The translations under genes were made by a program, and so were the position numbers. Positions 4,551 to 7,836 of a stretch of 64,000 bases of DNA are shown here, piece after piece. The first letter of the stretch is position 1; every line of letters begins with the position of its first letter. The notes beneath the pieces were generated by a model. That model did no database searches. It was not told the origin of the DNA and saw nothing but the letters and a program-made list of their open reading frames with translations. The stretch spans positions 1,550,001 to 1,614,000 of the forward strand of contig NZ_CP132343.1 of assembly GCF_040529065.1 (NCBI RefSeq), written 5' to 3'. The DNA is from Xanthomonas sacchari (GTDB lineage Bacteria > Pseudomonadota > Gammaproteobacteria > Xanthomonadales > Xanthomonadaceae).

Positions 4551-5452
4551 ACGAACAAGCCACTCCCCCTTACCGCAGCGGCAGCGTGGCCGTGATCGGC
4601 CGCCCCAACGTGGGCAAGTCCACCCTGACCAACGCCCTGGTGGGCGCCAAGGTCAGCATCGTCTCCAACCGCCCGCAGACCACCCGGCACCGGCTGCTGG
4701 GCATCGCCAGCTTCCCGGCCGGTCAGTTGCTGCTGGTCGACACCCCCGGCCTGCACCGCGAGCAGAAGCGCGCCATGAACCGGGTGATGAACCGCGCTGC
4801 GCGCGGCTCGCTGGAAGGCGTGGACGCCGGCCTGCTGGTGATCGAGGCCGGGCGCTGGGACGAGGAGGACACGCTGGCGTTCAACGTGCTCAGCGACGCC
4901 GGCATCCCGGTGGTGCTGGTGGTCAACAAGGTCGACCGGCTCAAGGACAAGACCGCGCTGCTGCCGTTCCTGCAGCAGGTCAGCGAGGGCCGCAGCTTCG
5001 CCGCGGTGCATCCGATCTCCGCGCTCAAGCGCAAGGGCCTGGAGGCGCTGGTGCGCGACCTGCTGGCCTTGGTGCCGGAAGCGCCGCCGATGTTCGGCGA
5101 AGACGAGATCACCGACCGCAGCCAGCGCTTCCTGGCCGGCGAACTGGTGCGCGAGCAGTTGATGCGCCAGCTCGGCGAGGAACTGCCGTACGCGACCACC
5201 GTGGAGATCGAGCGCTTCGCCGAAGACGGCGCGCTGCTGCGCATCGGCGCGGTGATCTGGGTCGAGCGCGAAGGCCAGAAGGCGATCGTGATCGGCAAGG
5301 GCGGCACCCGCCTGAAGGACATCGGCGCCAAGGCCCGCCAGCAGATGGAGCGCCTGTTCGGCGCCAAGGTGTTCCTGGAGACCTGGGTGCGCGTGCGCGA
5401 GGGCTGGTCCGACGACGAGGCGGCGTTGAAGGCGTTCGGGTACGGGGAGTAA
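4547..5452 (+). CDS. era: GTPase Era, 30S ribosomal subunit assembly factor
   Basis: A 301-residue essential GTPase that binds the 3' end of 16S rRNA during 30S maturation. The start is the GTG at 4547, which overlaps the rnc stop (GTGA); it puts the Walker A motif GRPNVGKST at about residues 18-26, normal for the family. DTPGLH (G3) and NKVD (G4) follow. The C-terminal KH domain contains [18 protein letters not shown]. The long in-frame stretch upstream of 4547 is an overlap with rnc and not part of Era. recO normally follows in the same operon, but here an IS110 element separates them. Confidence 0.96.
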
Positions 5453-5455
5453 AGC

Positions 5456-5520
5456 CGGGATTCGGGATTCGGGATTCGGGATGACCAGCCTGCGGCTGTT
5501 GCAAGCCGGAATTCGGGATT
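5456..5520. repeat. GGGATTC heptamer array after era
   Basis: Four direct copies based on GGGATTC (5456-5481) follow the era stop codon, and one more degenerate copy (GAATTCGGGATT) lies at 5509-5520. The matching reverse-complement array is at 6942-6980, on the far side of a REP palindrome and an IS110 element. Without the IS, array, REP and inverted array would form one composite about 300 bp long. Confidence 0.8.
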
Positions 5521-5551
5521 TTCTGAGGGTGCGCAGCGCATCTGGCGTTTT

Positions 5552-5615
5552 GTAGGAGCGGCTTCAGCCGCGACAGGCTGTCCCGGTAACGCGCGTCGCG
5601 GCTGAAGCCGCTCCT
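5552..5615. repeat. GTAG-headed REP palindrome, split by IS110 insertion
   Basis: The left arm GTAGGAGCGGCTTCAGCC-GCGAC (5552-5574) pairs with the right arm at 5595-5615, which ends in GCTCCT. The expected terminal AC of the right arm is missing here but is found at 6849-6850, directly after the IS110 element. When rejoined, both arms extend symmetrically to TTTGTAG/CTACAAA. It is the same family as the palindromes at 7918, 16141 and 60793. Confidence 0.9.
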
Positions 5616-5640
5616 TGTATCTGGACATGTCGCCCCTAAA

Positions 5641-5820
5641 CAGGCGTCATGTCTTCCGACTGATCATCGGAGGAGGTGTGGGAGGCCCAGTCGCTCCTAA
5701 AGCTTCGAGCTTGCATCGTAGATCGGCTCCGCCCTCCACATGCTGGCCCTTGTGTGTCCGAACGGTATCCAGAGTCCGCTCCCGGGCGTGAACTCGCATC
5801 GACAAGGCAGGACCGGGCCC
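5641..5820 (+). ncRNA. Putative IS110 bridge RNA (ends approximate)
   Basis: The 5' non-coding region of the element shows two successive loop units. Target loop: CGCTCCTA (5692-5699) equals the target's left side plus one base. The hairpin AAGCT-TCG-AGCTT (5700-5712) follows, then GTAG (5718-5721), the reverse complement of the target's CTAC. Donor loop: ACGGTATC (5762-5769) equals the element's right end. A hairpin-forming segment closed by GAGT/ACTC (5772-5795) follows, then ACAAG (5802-5806), the reverse complement of CTTGT at the element's left junction. This ordering matches the target- and donor-binding loops of described IS110 bridge RNAs. Transcription and exact ends are inferred. 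Confidence 0.68.
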
Positions 5821-5859
5821 AGCGCCGATCATGACCCTGACACGATGGAGGAATCGCGT

Positions 5860-6831
5860 ATGTCTCCCGTCATCGGCATCGACGTCGCCAAACGCAGTTT
5901 CGATGCGGCCATCGATCTGACCAATGGCAAGCACCGTACCAAGGCCAAGTTGTCCAACGATGCCAAGGGCTTCCAGGCCCTGCAGGCATGGCTGCAGACG
6001 CATGCGCAGCCCGATAGCTGGATCGCCATGGAGGCCACCGGCACCTATCACCAGGCGCTGGCCGAGTTCCTCCACGCACGAGGCTATCAGGTGTGCGTGC
6101 TCAACCCTGCGCAGACGGCCGCGTACGCACGCAGCCAGCTCAGCCGGGTCAAGACCGATCGCAGCGATGCCAAGCTGATCGCCAGTTATGCCCTGCGTCA
6201 CCGCGAGCAGTTACGCCGTTGGCACCCTGATCCGCCGGCGCTCAAGCAGCTCAAAGCGCTGGTGCGCCGGCGCCAGGATCTGCAACAGATGCTGCAGATG
6301 GAGCGCAACCGGCTGGACGTCGCTCCGGCCCAGGTGAAGGACTCGATCCAGGTCCATTTGGCCGATCTGCAACACCACATCGCCCAGATCGAGCAGGCCA
6401 TCGATGACCACATCGACCAGGATCCGACCTTGCGTGGGCAGCGCGAGCTGCTGGTGAGCATCCAGGGGATTGCCGACACCAGCGCGGCCTTGATGCTGGC
6501 CGAGCTTGGCGATGTGAGGCGCTTCGCCGATGCCGCGGCGGTGACCGCCTTCGCGGGCCTGAATCCGTGCCTGCAGCAGTCGGGCGACCGCAAAGGCCAC
6601 GTCTGCATCTCGCGCACCGGCTCGCCCCGCCTGCGTGCGGGCCTGTTCATGCCGGCCCTGGTGGCCATGACCCACAACCCGATCATCCGGACGCTGAAAC
6701 AGCGGCTGAGCGAACGCGGCAAAGCCGGCAAGCAGATCGTGTGCGCCGCCATGCGCAAGCTCCTGCACCTGGCCTACGGGGTTCTCAAATCGGGTACGGC
6801 GTTCGATCCGAAAAGGGGACTTGCCTGCTAG
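5860..6831 (+). CDS. IS110-family DEDD transposase/recombinase
   Basis: A 323-residue recombinase. The N-terminal RuvC-like DEDD domain shows GIDVAK (D8), AMEATG (E58) and TDRSDAK (D100, D103). A coiled linker (~120-190) leads to the C-terminal transposase domain with SIQGIADTSAALMLAELGD, AFAGLNP and ISRTGSPRLR, which carries the family's conserved serine. The ATG at 5860 is chosen because GGAGGAA lies 7 bases upstream and the protein then starts MSPVIGIDVAK, as in the family. The gene is complete with no frameshift, so the element may be active. It inserts between era and recO in the sense orientation. Confidence 0.96.
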   Translation: MSPVIGIDVAKRSFDAAIDLTNGKHRTKAKLSNDAKGFQALQAWLQTHAQPDSWIAMEATGTYHQALAEFLHARGYQVCVLNPAQTAAYARSQLSRVKTDRSDAKLIASYALRHREQLRRWHPDPPALKQLKALVRRRQDLQQMLQMERNRLDVAPAQVKDSIQVHLADLQHHIAQIEQAIDDHIDQDPTLRGQRELLVSIQGIADTSAALMLAELGDVRRFADAAAVTAFAGLNPCLQQSGDRKGHVCISRTGSPRLRAGLFMPALVAMTHNPIIRTLKQRLSERGKAGKQIVCAAMRKLLHLAYGVLKSGTAFDPKRGLAC

Positions 6832-6941
6832 GGGGTAAGACGGTATCTACAAAGAAACGCGGCCCTTTCTTGCGTGGTCCCGTTTAACTCGGTATAGCAC
6901 CGCTTCCCGCGCATCCGCACGCGTTCCGTTCCCGGGCCGCT

Positions 6942-6980
6942 GCTGTTGCGAATCCCCAATCCCCACTCCCGAATCCCCGC
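6942..6980. repeat. Inverted heptamer array abutting the recO start codon
   Basis: The head GCTGTTGCGA is followed by AATCCCC/AATCCCG-type heptamers up to position 6980; the recO start codon is at 6982. It is the reverse-complement partner of the array at 5456-5520. No purine-rich ribosome-binding site remains between it and recO. Confidence 0.82.
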
Positions 6981-6981
6981 C

Positions 6982-7836
6982 TTGATAGAGCACGAACCCG
7001 GTTTCGTCCTGCACGCCCGGCCCTGGCGCGAGACCAGCCTGCTGGTGGAGGTGCTGAGCGTGCACCACGGCCGGCTCGGGGTGCTGGCGCGCGGCGTGCA
7101 GGGGCCGAAGAAGCAGGCCTTGCGCGCGGCGTTGCAGCCGCTGCAGTCGATCCGCTTCAGCGCGCAGCGCCGCGGCGAACTGGCGCAACTGCGCGCGGCC
7201 GAGGCGCTGGATGCGGCGCCGCGGCTGAGCGGCGAGGCGATGCTGGCCGGCTTCTACATCAACGAACTGACCCTGCGCCTGGCCCCGCGCGACGACCCGG
7301 CGCCGGACCTGTACCTGGCCTATGCGCGGGTGCGCGCACGGCTGGCGGCCGAGGCGCCATTGGCCTGGTCGCTGCGCTGCTTCGAGCGCGATCTGCTGGA
7401 GGCGCTGGGCGTGGGCTTCGACCTGCGCCACGACGGCGACGGTGAGCCGATCGACCCGGCCGCGCGCTACGTGCTCGACGCCGAACACGGACCGCGCCGG
7501 TTGTTGAGCGACCGCGGCCACGACCAGCGCAGCGGCATGGCCACCGGCCGCGCGCTGCTGGCCCTGGCCGACGACACCGAACCGGTCGCCGAGGATCTGC
7601 CCGGCCTGCGCCGCGGCATGCGCGTGGTGCTGCTGCATCACCTCGGTGGGCGCGGCCTGAAATCCTGGGAAATGGTCGAGGACTTGGCACGGCAGCGCAG
7701 CGCGGCCACCGCGGCGCCGGAGGCGGCACTCCGCGCGGCGACGCCCGACGCGGACGCCGATCCGGAGTCCACGTCCGACGCGATGGCGGAGTCCACGGCG
7801 GAAGAGGCGAAGGTGCCGCCGTCCGCGGCGTCGTGA
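6982..7836 (+). CDS. recO: DNA repair protein RecO
   Basis: A 284-residue protein that loads RecA with RecR on SSB-coated single-stranded DNA. The N-terminal OB fold contains [17 protein letters not shown]; the central helical region includes [11 protein letters not shown]. The family zinc-finger cysteines are not present, as in other gammaproteobacterial RecO. The start is a TTG at 6982 (protein [13 protein letters not shown]); other in-frame codons upstream lie in the repeat array. The last ~50 residues are an Ala/Asp/Glu-rich tail beyond the usual RecO end. It is normally co-transcribed with era, but here it lies downstream of an IS110 element. Confidence 0.9.

Follow-up and report, generated by a model that had tools for sequence, protein, structure and literature searches.

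The stretch of Xanthomonas sacchari DNA analysed here, 64,000 nt in length and referred to below as the window, includes a 1233 bp insertion sequence on the forward strand (positions 5616 to 6848) that, with a probability we put at about 95%, is an IS110-group element whose non-coding DNA ahead of the recombinase gene encodes a bridge RNA with guides that pair with the ends of REP sequences. According to this model, the RNA encoded ahead of the gene would base-pair through a first loop (5690-5698 and 5718-5721) with a GTAG-type REP end (GCCGCTCCTAC), while its other loop (5762-5769 and 5798-5806) would pair where the two ends of the element itself are joined; a DEDD/serine recombinase would exchange strands at the common CT core, and copies would thereby land in REP ends. 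By analogy with IS621, the RNA would be transcribed, bound by the recombinase and direct the reaction.

An IS110-group element within REP sequences

The element is flanked by two ordinary genes, which, judging by their sequences, we take to be era and recO. Its 323 aa recombinase ORF (5860-6831, forward strand) matches the Pfam domains PF01548 (DEDD, RuvC-like, N-terminal; E 9.5e-36) and PF02371 (Transposase_20, C-terminal; E 1.1e-21), and scores 241.6 bits against the NCBIfam model for IS110 RNA-guided transposases (NF033542), exceeding the cut-off of 140. Two solved relatives were detected, the better match being IS621 (8wt6, E 2.5e-63) and the other ISCro4 (9t56, E 1.7e-61). Residues D8, E58, D100, D103 and S241 align with residues of identical type in the IS621 chain, and are presumably catalytic; there appears to be a two-residue offset between this chain and the published numbering. 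The serine at 241 is singled out in a figure legend of the IS621 structure paper (PMC11208158). Non-coding DNA accounts for 244 bp ahead of the ORF and 17 bp past its stop codon. A long non-coding end, with the RNA upstream of the gene, is described as the mark of the IS110 group, as opposed to IS1111 (PMC11208160), and the element belongs to the former group.

In the genome carrying the window (G000; 4.96 Mb, one contig), a DNA search in which the best 40 of 173 first-look candidates were scored found 18 full copies, with identities of 97.5 to 100%, plus one 83 bp piece; a protein search, in which all 47 candidates were scored, likewise found 18 copies. All 18 full copies share the same ends, with CGCTCCT to the left and AC to the right, and the left REP end reads GCCGCTCCT at every one of the 18 insertions. 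Seventeen adjoin REP directly, and the eighteenth (L014) adjoins the 83 bp left-end piece, which itself adjoins a REP end. In the window, the left part of the split REP occupies 5595-5615, ending in the left target GCCGCTCCT, and the AC at 6849-6850 is what remains, on the right, of the REP end CTAC; the insertion point is CGCTCCT^AC, with the CT core at both junctions. At the orthologous era-recO site of a relative (L140, in genome G006) the REP is unbroken, with GCCGCTCCT running directly into ACAAGG, and this uninterrupted sequence fixes both the boundaries of the element and its CT core. In nine other relatives aligned across this site the sequence is also REP-like, but diverges to a greater or lesser extent. 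The REP-end pattern GCCGCTCCTAC has 387 sites in G000, as against 60 for the same pattern read backwards.

One of the copies (L018, G000:C1:115718-116950) has an in-frame TAG within its recombinase gene, and hence probably moves only with the help of others. Recombinase matches at E 1e-30 were found in eight of 20 genomes of the genus, with none in G016; in G017, a related recombinase at C1:830788-831755 was matched as two separate pieces, and intact copies are also found in that genome. The number of GCCGCTCCTAC sites over the 20 genomes ranges from 1 to 580. Some of the nearest named matches are short and partial, covering 34-35 residues at 97% identity, and lie on contigs of Xanthomonas sp. 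NCPPB 1128. To either side of the element in the window, close to the REP, are short GGGATTC / GAATCCC repeat tracts (5459-5520 and 6950-6979).

Guides and fold of the predicted upstream RNA

The initial annotation read the non-coding DNA upstream of the recombinase gene as the target-binding loop of a bridge RNA, with CGCTCCTA at 5692-5699 as the left guide. These letters are indeed present, but when the guide register is taken from the published account of the IS621 structure (PMC11208158), the left guide is instead GTCGCTCCT, at 5690-5698 on the forward strand, its nine nucleotides being composed of seven plus the CT core and aligning with A50-U58 of IS621. A5699 sits at the linker base of IS621, and its match to the A of the target is left out of the guide pairing, whereas T5691, which went unmentioned in the annotation, differs from the C of the target but could form an rU:dG wobble. 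The perfect inner hairpin that had been described at 5700-5712, AAGCT-TCG-AGCTT, was found as such; among relatives, stem pairs occur in which both partners have changed (alignment columns 52-65). Also present as described is the GTAG at 5718-5721, the reverse complement of the target CTAC, which is identified as the right guide by this identity and by an order and near-equal spacing like those of G77-G80 in IS621; it is followed by AT at 5722-5723, where IS621 has its handshake guide A81-U82. In the window, CGCTCCTA has seven occurrences, six of them REP ends (GCCGCTCCTAC) and the seventh the left guide, the only one outside REP ends.

A donor loop, overlooked by the annotation, lies downstream. 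Its left guide ACGGTATC (5762-5769; compare IS621 A123-C130) is the right end of the element through the core C, and its right guide ATCGACAAG (5798-5806; compare IS621 A157-U158/C162-G165) consists of A and U, two unpaired bases and ACAAG. Against the joined ends of the element, for which the donor sequence is GGTATCTTGTAT, the left guide agrees at 8/8 positions and the right at 7/7, the latter being the complement of CTTGTAT at the left end.

The consensus fold of 22 aligned elements, including that of the window, predicts a 5' stem-loop and both a target and a donor loop, each with an inner hairpin, in agreement with the two-loop structure expected of a bridge RNA. The 5' stem-loop (5655-5671 in the window; columns 6-22) has five consensus pairs, of which two are changed on both sides among the 22 elements, with one element breaking one pair. 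Overall, 10 of the 27 pairs in the fold of this alignment (A1) have two-sided changes. The outer stem of the target-binding loop is absent from the A1 fold, but its arms, at 5672-5689 (5') and 5725-5737 (3'), pair preferentially within elements: the mean duplex energy is -21.6 kcal/mol within elements and -16.0 kcal/mol between them, with none of 20,000 permutations as good, in a test that ignores relatedness. For the stem of the donor loop, the same test gave -19.1 kcal/mol within as against -16.7 kcal/mol between elements, with one of 20,000 permutations as good. The effect per element is modest, an element's own 3' arm being its best or tied partner in 8/22 cases for the target loop and 1/22 for the donor loop.

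The single-sequence fold of 5660-5860 is not unusually stable (z = +2.18, with 198 of 200 shuffles folding at least as well); as the guide loops are meant to be open, stability of this kind was dropped as a criterion and covariation was used in its place. Across the whole window no Rfam family reached its gathering score, although Rfam 15 may lack a family for IS110 bridge RNAs, and a permissive search of 5400-7000 returned eight matches, all under their gathering scores and six of them on the REP palindrome. A simple consensus scan found no sigma-70-type promoter.

A predicted RNA immediately upstream of an ORF might equally be expected of a structured 5' leader that merely regulates translation of the recombinase. 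Such a role has been proposed in ISPpu9 for its 5'-UTR and for the sRNA Asr9; ISPpu9 is a REP-targeting element of the IS110/IS492 family in which tnp is described as being under sRNA regulation (PMC8450116). Regulation does not, however, predict complementarity of guides to the target and to the donor, and we regard it as very unlikely to be all that this region does; being compatible with targeting, it would be an addition to the bridge RNA model and not an alternative to it.

Covariation of left guides with left targets

All copies in G000 have one guide and one target in common, hence within that genome pairing by a bridge RNA is inseparable from a guide-target identity that arose by chance or duplication, with the recombinase protein alone recognising the REP hairpin. 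The comparison was therefore extended to relatives, comprising the best 80 of 110, with 30 of the 58 listed genome matches taken as loci. The resulting sample consists of 78 element rows with a readable left end: L001-L018, 59 of the 110 rows L020-L129, and L130. The 51 excluded were those in which the tblastn match started after residue 10 (mostly contig-end fragments, but also L079 and L080) and L067, which is without a left end; L131-L135 are G000 copies that had already been counted. Six rows (L020, L028, L034, L039, L044 and L049) repeat G000 places among L001-L018, such that the sample represents at most 72 distinct places, with further overlap possible among nine rows from draft Pseudomonas sp. 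BN417 that are at or near contig edges. Guides were found through the inner hairpin, independently of the target.

All nine positions of guide and target match in 28 of the 78 rows, eight match in 49 and six in one; allowing for wobbles as well as Watson-Crick pairs, all nine can pair in 76 of the 78 rows (at most 72 distinct places). When rows were collapsed to 12 distinct guides, that of the window included, each with its commonest target, 82 of the 84 non-core positions matched, whereas permutation gave a mean of 46.6 (sd 5.6, maximum 76). None of 1,000,000 permutations reached 82, in a test that ignores relatedness and in which three of the 12 guides share one common target. Hence the contention that the match is beyond chance is borne out, as is the prediction that guides and targets would covary among related elements. 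The match to an element's own target exceeds the level of cross-pairs at all seven non-core positions, and the two misses, a guide T against a target C in the window type and a guide G against a target A in L050, could be rU:dG or rG:dT pairs. The rule of taking the majority target leaves L070 outside the permutation test, and the tie of one guide was assigned to its mismatching target (L050). When offsets were scanned in the upstream DNA of 16 representatives, a single peak emerged, at the guide register, with an excess of 3.26 matches; the next highest of 210 offsets had 0.55.

Relatives inserted at quite different targets (for example GCAGCGGCT, TTCGCCCCT and GACCGCCCT) have a guide to match, in the same position within the RNA, and together with the variation of left guide with left target this makes recognition of REP by the protein alone, with a chance or duplicated identity, highly improbable, even though there is hardly any variation in the right guide or the right target. 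Just one of the 78 rows, L070 (Pseudomonas mendocina FFL34), combines a guide with a clearly different target: it has the guide ATCCACCCT at the target GCGCACCCT, and of the three positions out of nine that differ, two are true mismatches. The left guide of L069, from the same strain, is identical, and of the two only L069 is at a matching target. In L077, the guide has lost the T of its core. The right guide is GTAG in 76/78 rows, the exceptions being one GTGG and one ATAG, and the right junction, which was readable by script in 76 rows, is CTAC in 75 of them and CTGC in the other. Being nearly invariant, the right guide is unsuited to a covariation test, and its assignment, which is suggested by identity and by analogy with IS621, is accordingly the more provisional half of the pairing. 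The original reading as a target-binding loop is thus supported by covariation and by the consensus fold, with its guide boundaries corrected and a donor loop added. Of the two outcomes that the annotation had named as refuting it, lack of a two-loop fold and identical guides at unrelated targets, neither materialised to a degree that would overturn it.

The guide in the window is one wobble away from the REP of its host: the wobble site GCCGCTCCTAC is present 387 times in G000, whereas the exact counterpart of the guide, GTCGCTCCTAC, has only two sites, as against eight for the backward-read pattern. In the published description of IS621, the specificity of the guide is ATCGGGCCTAC and the natural target is ATCAGGCCTAC, the difference being explained by an rG:dT pair, and 2 of 173 mapped insertion sites match the guide exactly (PMC11208160). 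This shared offset may reflect chance, drift or attenuation. A general rule that guides lie one non-canonical pair off the host REP is argued against by relatives with perfect guides, such as L072 in Pseudomonas and L130 in another genus of the same family.

The idea that T5691 allows two classes of REP to be read was not supported. Of the 20 genomes of the genus, only G016 has many GTCGCTCCTAC sites (112, followed by G002 with 28), and G016 has no recombinase match at E 1e-30. Of the 48 rows with a T in the guide, only L024 is at a GTC target site. Amongst the eight genomes with recombinase matches, the number of GTCGCTCCTAC sites is clearly above that of the backward pattern only in G017 (21 as against 3), an exception to this rejection; the other seven have between 0 and 10 sites, not clearly above the backward pattern.

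Related systems and a possible self-insertion

Choi et al. are said to have described REP targeting by IS110 elements in 2003. It was in print by 2006, when Tobes and Pareja reported REP insertions for 7/7 copies of ISPpu9 and 7/7 of ISPpu10 in Pseudomonas putida, and 6/6 copies of ISPa11 in P. aeruginosa (PMC1525189). By this published description, these elements resemble the one in the window in their REP-specific insertion; the word Xanthomonas is absent from that paper. ISPa11 differs in belonging to the IS1111 group, with its RNA downstream of the gene (PMC11187229). Durrant et al. reported the bridge RNA in 2024, including the fact that it covaries with targets and that most IS110s have one (PMC11208160), and the structure and guide register of IS621 were reported by Hiraizumi et al. 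in the same year (PMC11208158). Siddiquee et al. (2024) described the same concept under the name of seekRNA, including natural reprogramming between related elements; the examples considered here are four of IS1111 type and one of IS110 type, and the word Xanthomonas is absent (PMC11187229).

The closest likeness is to IS621 of E. coli, which shares the recombinase family, a bridge RNA in the left end, a REP target ending in CCTAC, a 9 nt left guide containing the CT core, a right guide complementary to CTAC, the AU handshake bases, an 8 nt left donor guide, a split (discontinuous) right donor guide and a guide that is one non-canonical pair off its usual target. The host and REP family differ, as does the guide, here GTCGCTCCT; the non-canonical pair involves guide position two in the window element (rU:dG) but position four in IS621 (rG:dT), and the spacing between target guides is 19 nt rather than 18 nt. 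Searches of an open-licence literature library found no description of the element at 5616-6848, nor of any copy inserted into itself. The element clearly exemplifies anew the mechanism published in 2024, without being a new mechanism, and as guides follow targets it serves, in a different group of bacteria, as an independent natural test of the bridge RNA model. A REP-targeting element can evidently have a guide that lies one wobble off the REP in use, an observation relevant to the stringency of natural bridge RNAs; a reporter assay could take its variants directly from the guide-target pairs found in nature.

The left guide's own DNA, viewed as an alternative target, reads GTCGCTCCTAAA, and one copy may bear on whether it is ever used as such. 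L014 is a full copy at G000:C1:3587387-3588619 on the minus strand (3587387-3588702 with the fragment), directly ahead of which lie bases 1-83 of the element, identical to its own first 83 bases and ending in the CGCTCCT of the guide. The simpler explanation is slippage during replication: the REP end and the guide constitute a 7 bp direct repeat, 83 bp apart, that guide-target identity itself creates, and slipping from one to the other would generate the same sequence. We consider it possible, though on balance doubtful, that L014 is instead a natural self-insertion, in which an element entered the left guide of another copy at the CT core and later homologous recombination left the 83 bp fragment. 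Rearrangement between distant loci is ruled out, as the site is collinear in G006 and G007.

A search of the 20 genomes of the genus for a second left junction of self-insertion (at most one mismatch, in this guide context) gave a hit in only one, G000 itself, and the exact pattern of the reciprocal right junction was found in none of the 20. Among 136 loci, the fragment junction is present only in L014, along with L019 and L136, which cover the same place; an apparent right junction in L060 proved merely to be the donor guide of that element. The two bases following the guide core are AA, GA, TA, AG or CA in 78/78 rows, and never AC. The second of these opens the stem of the inner hairpin, which alone may explain why it is never C. 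Were L014 truly a self-insertion, IS110 elements would risk hitting their own guide DNA, normally restrained only by the mismatch in the right half of the target, which would then play a PAM-like role. The REP at L014 also has a GGGATTC / GAATCCC tract beside it, similar to those around the element in the window.
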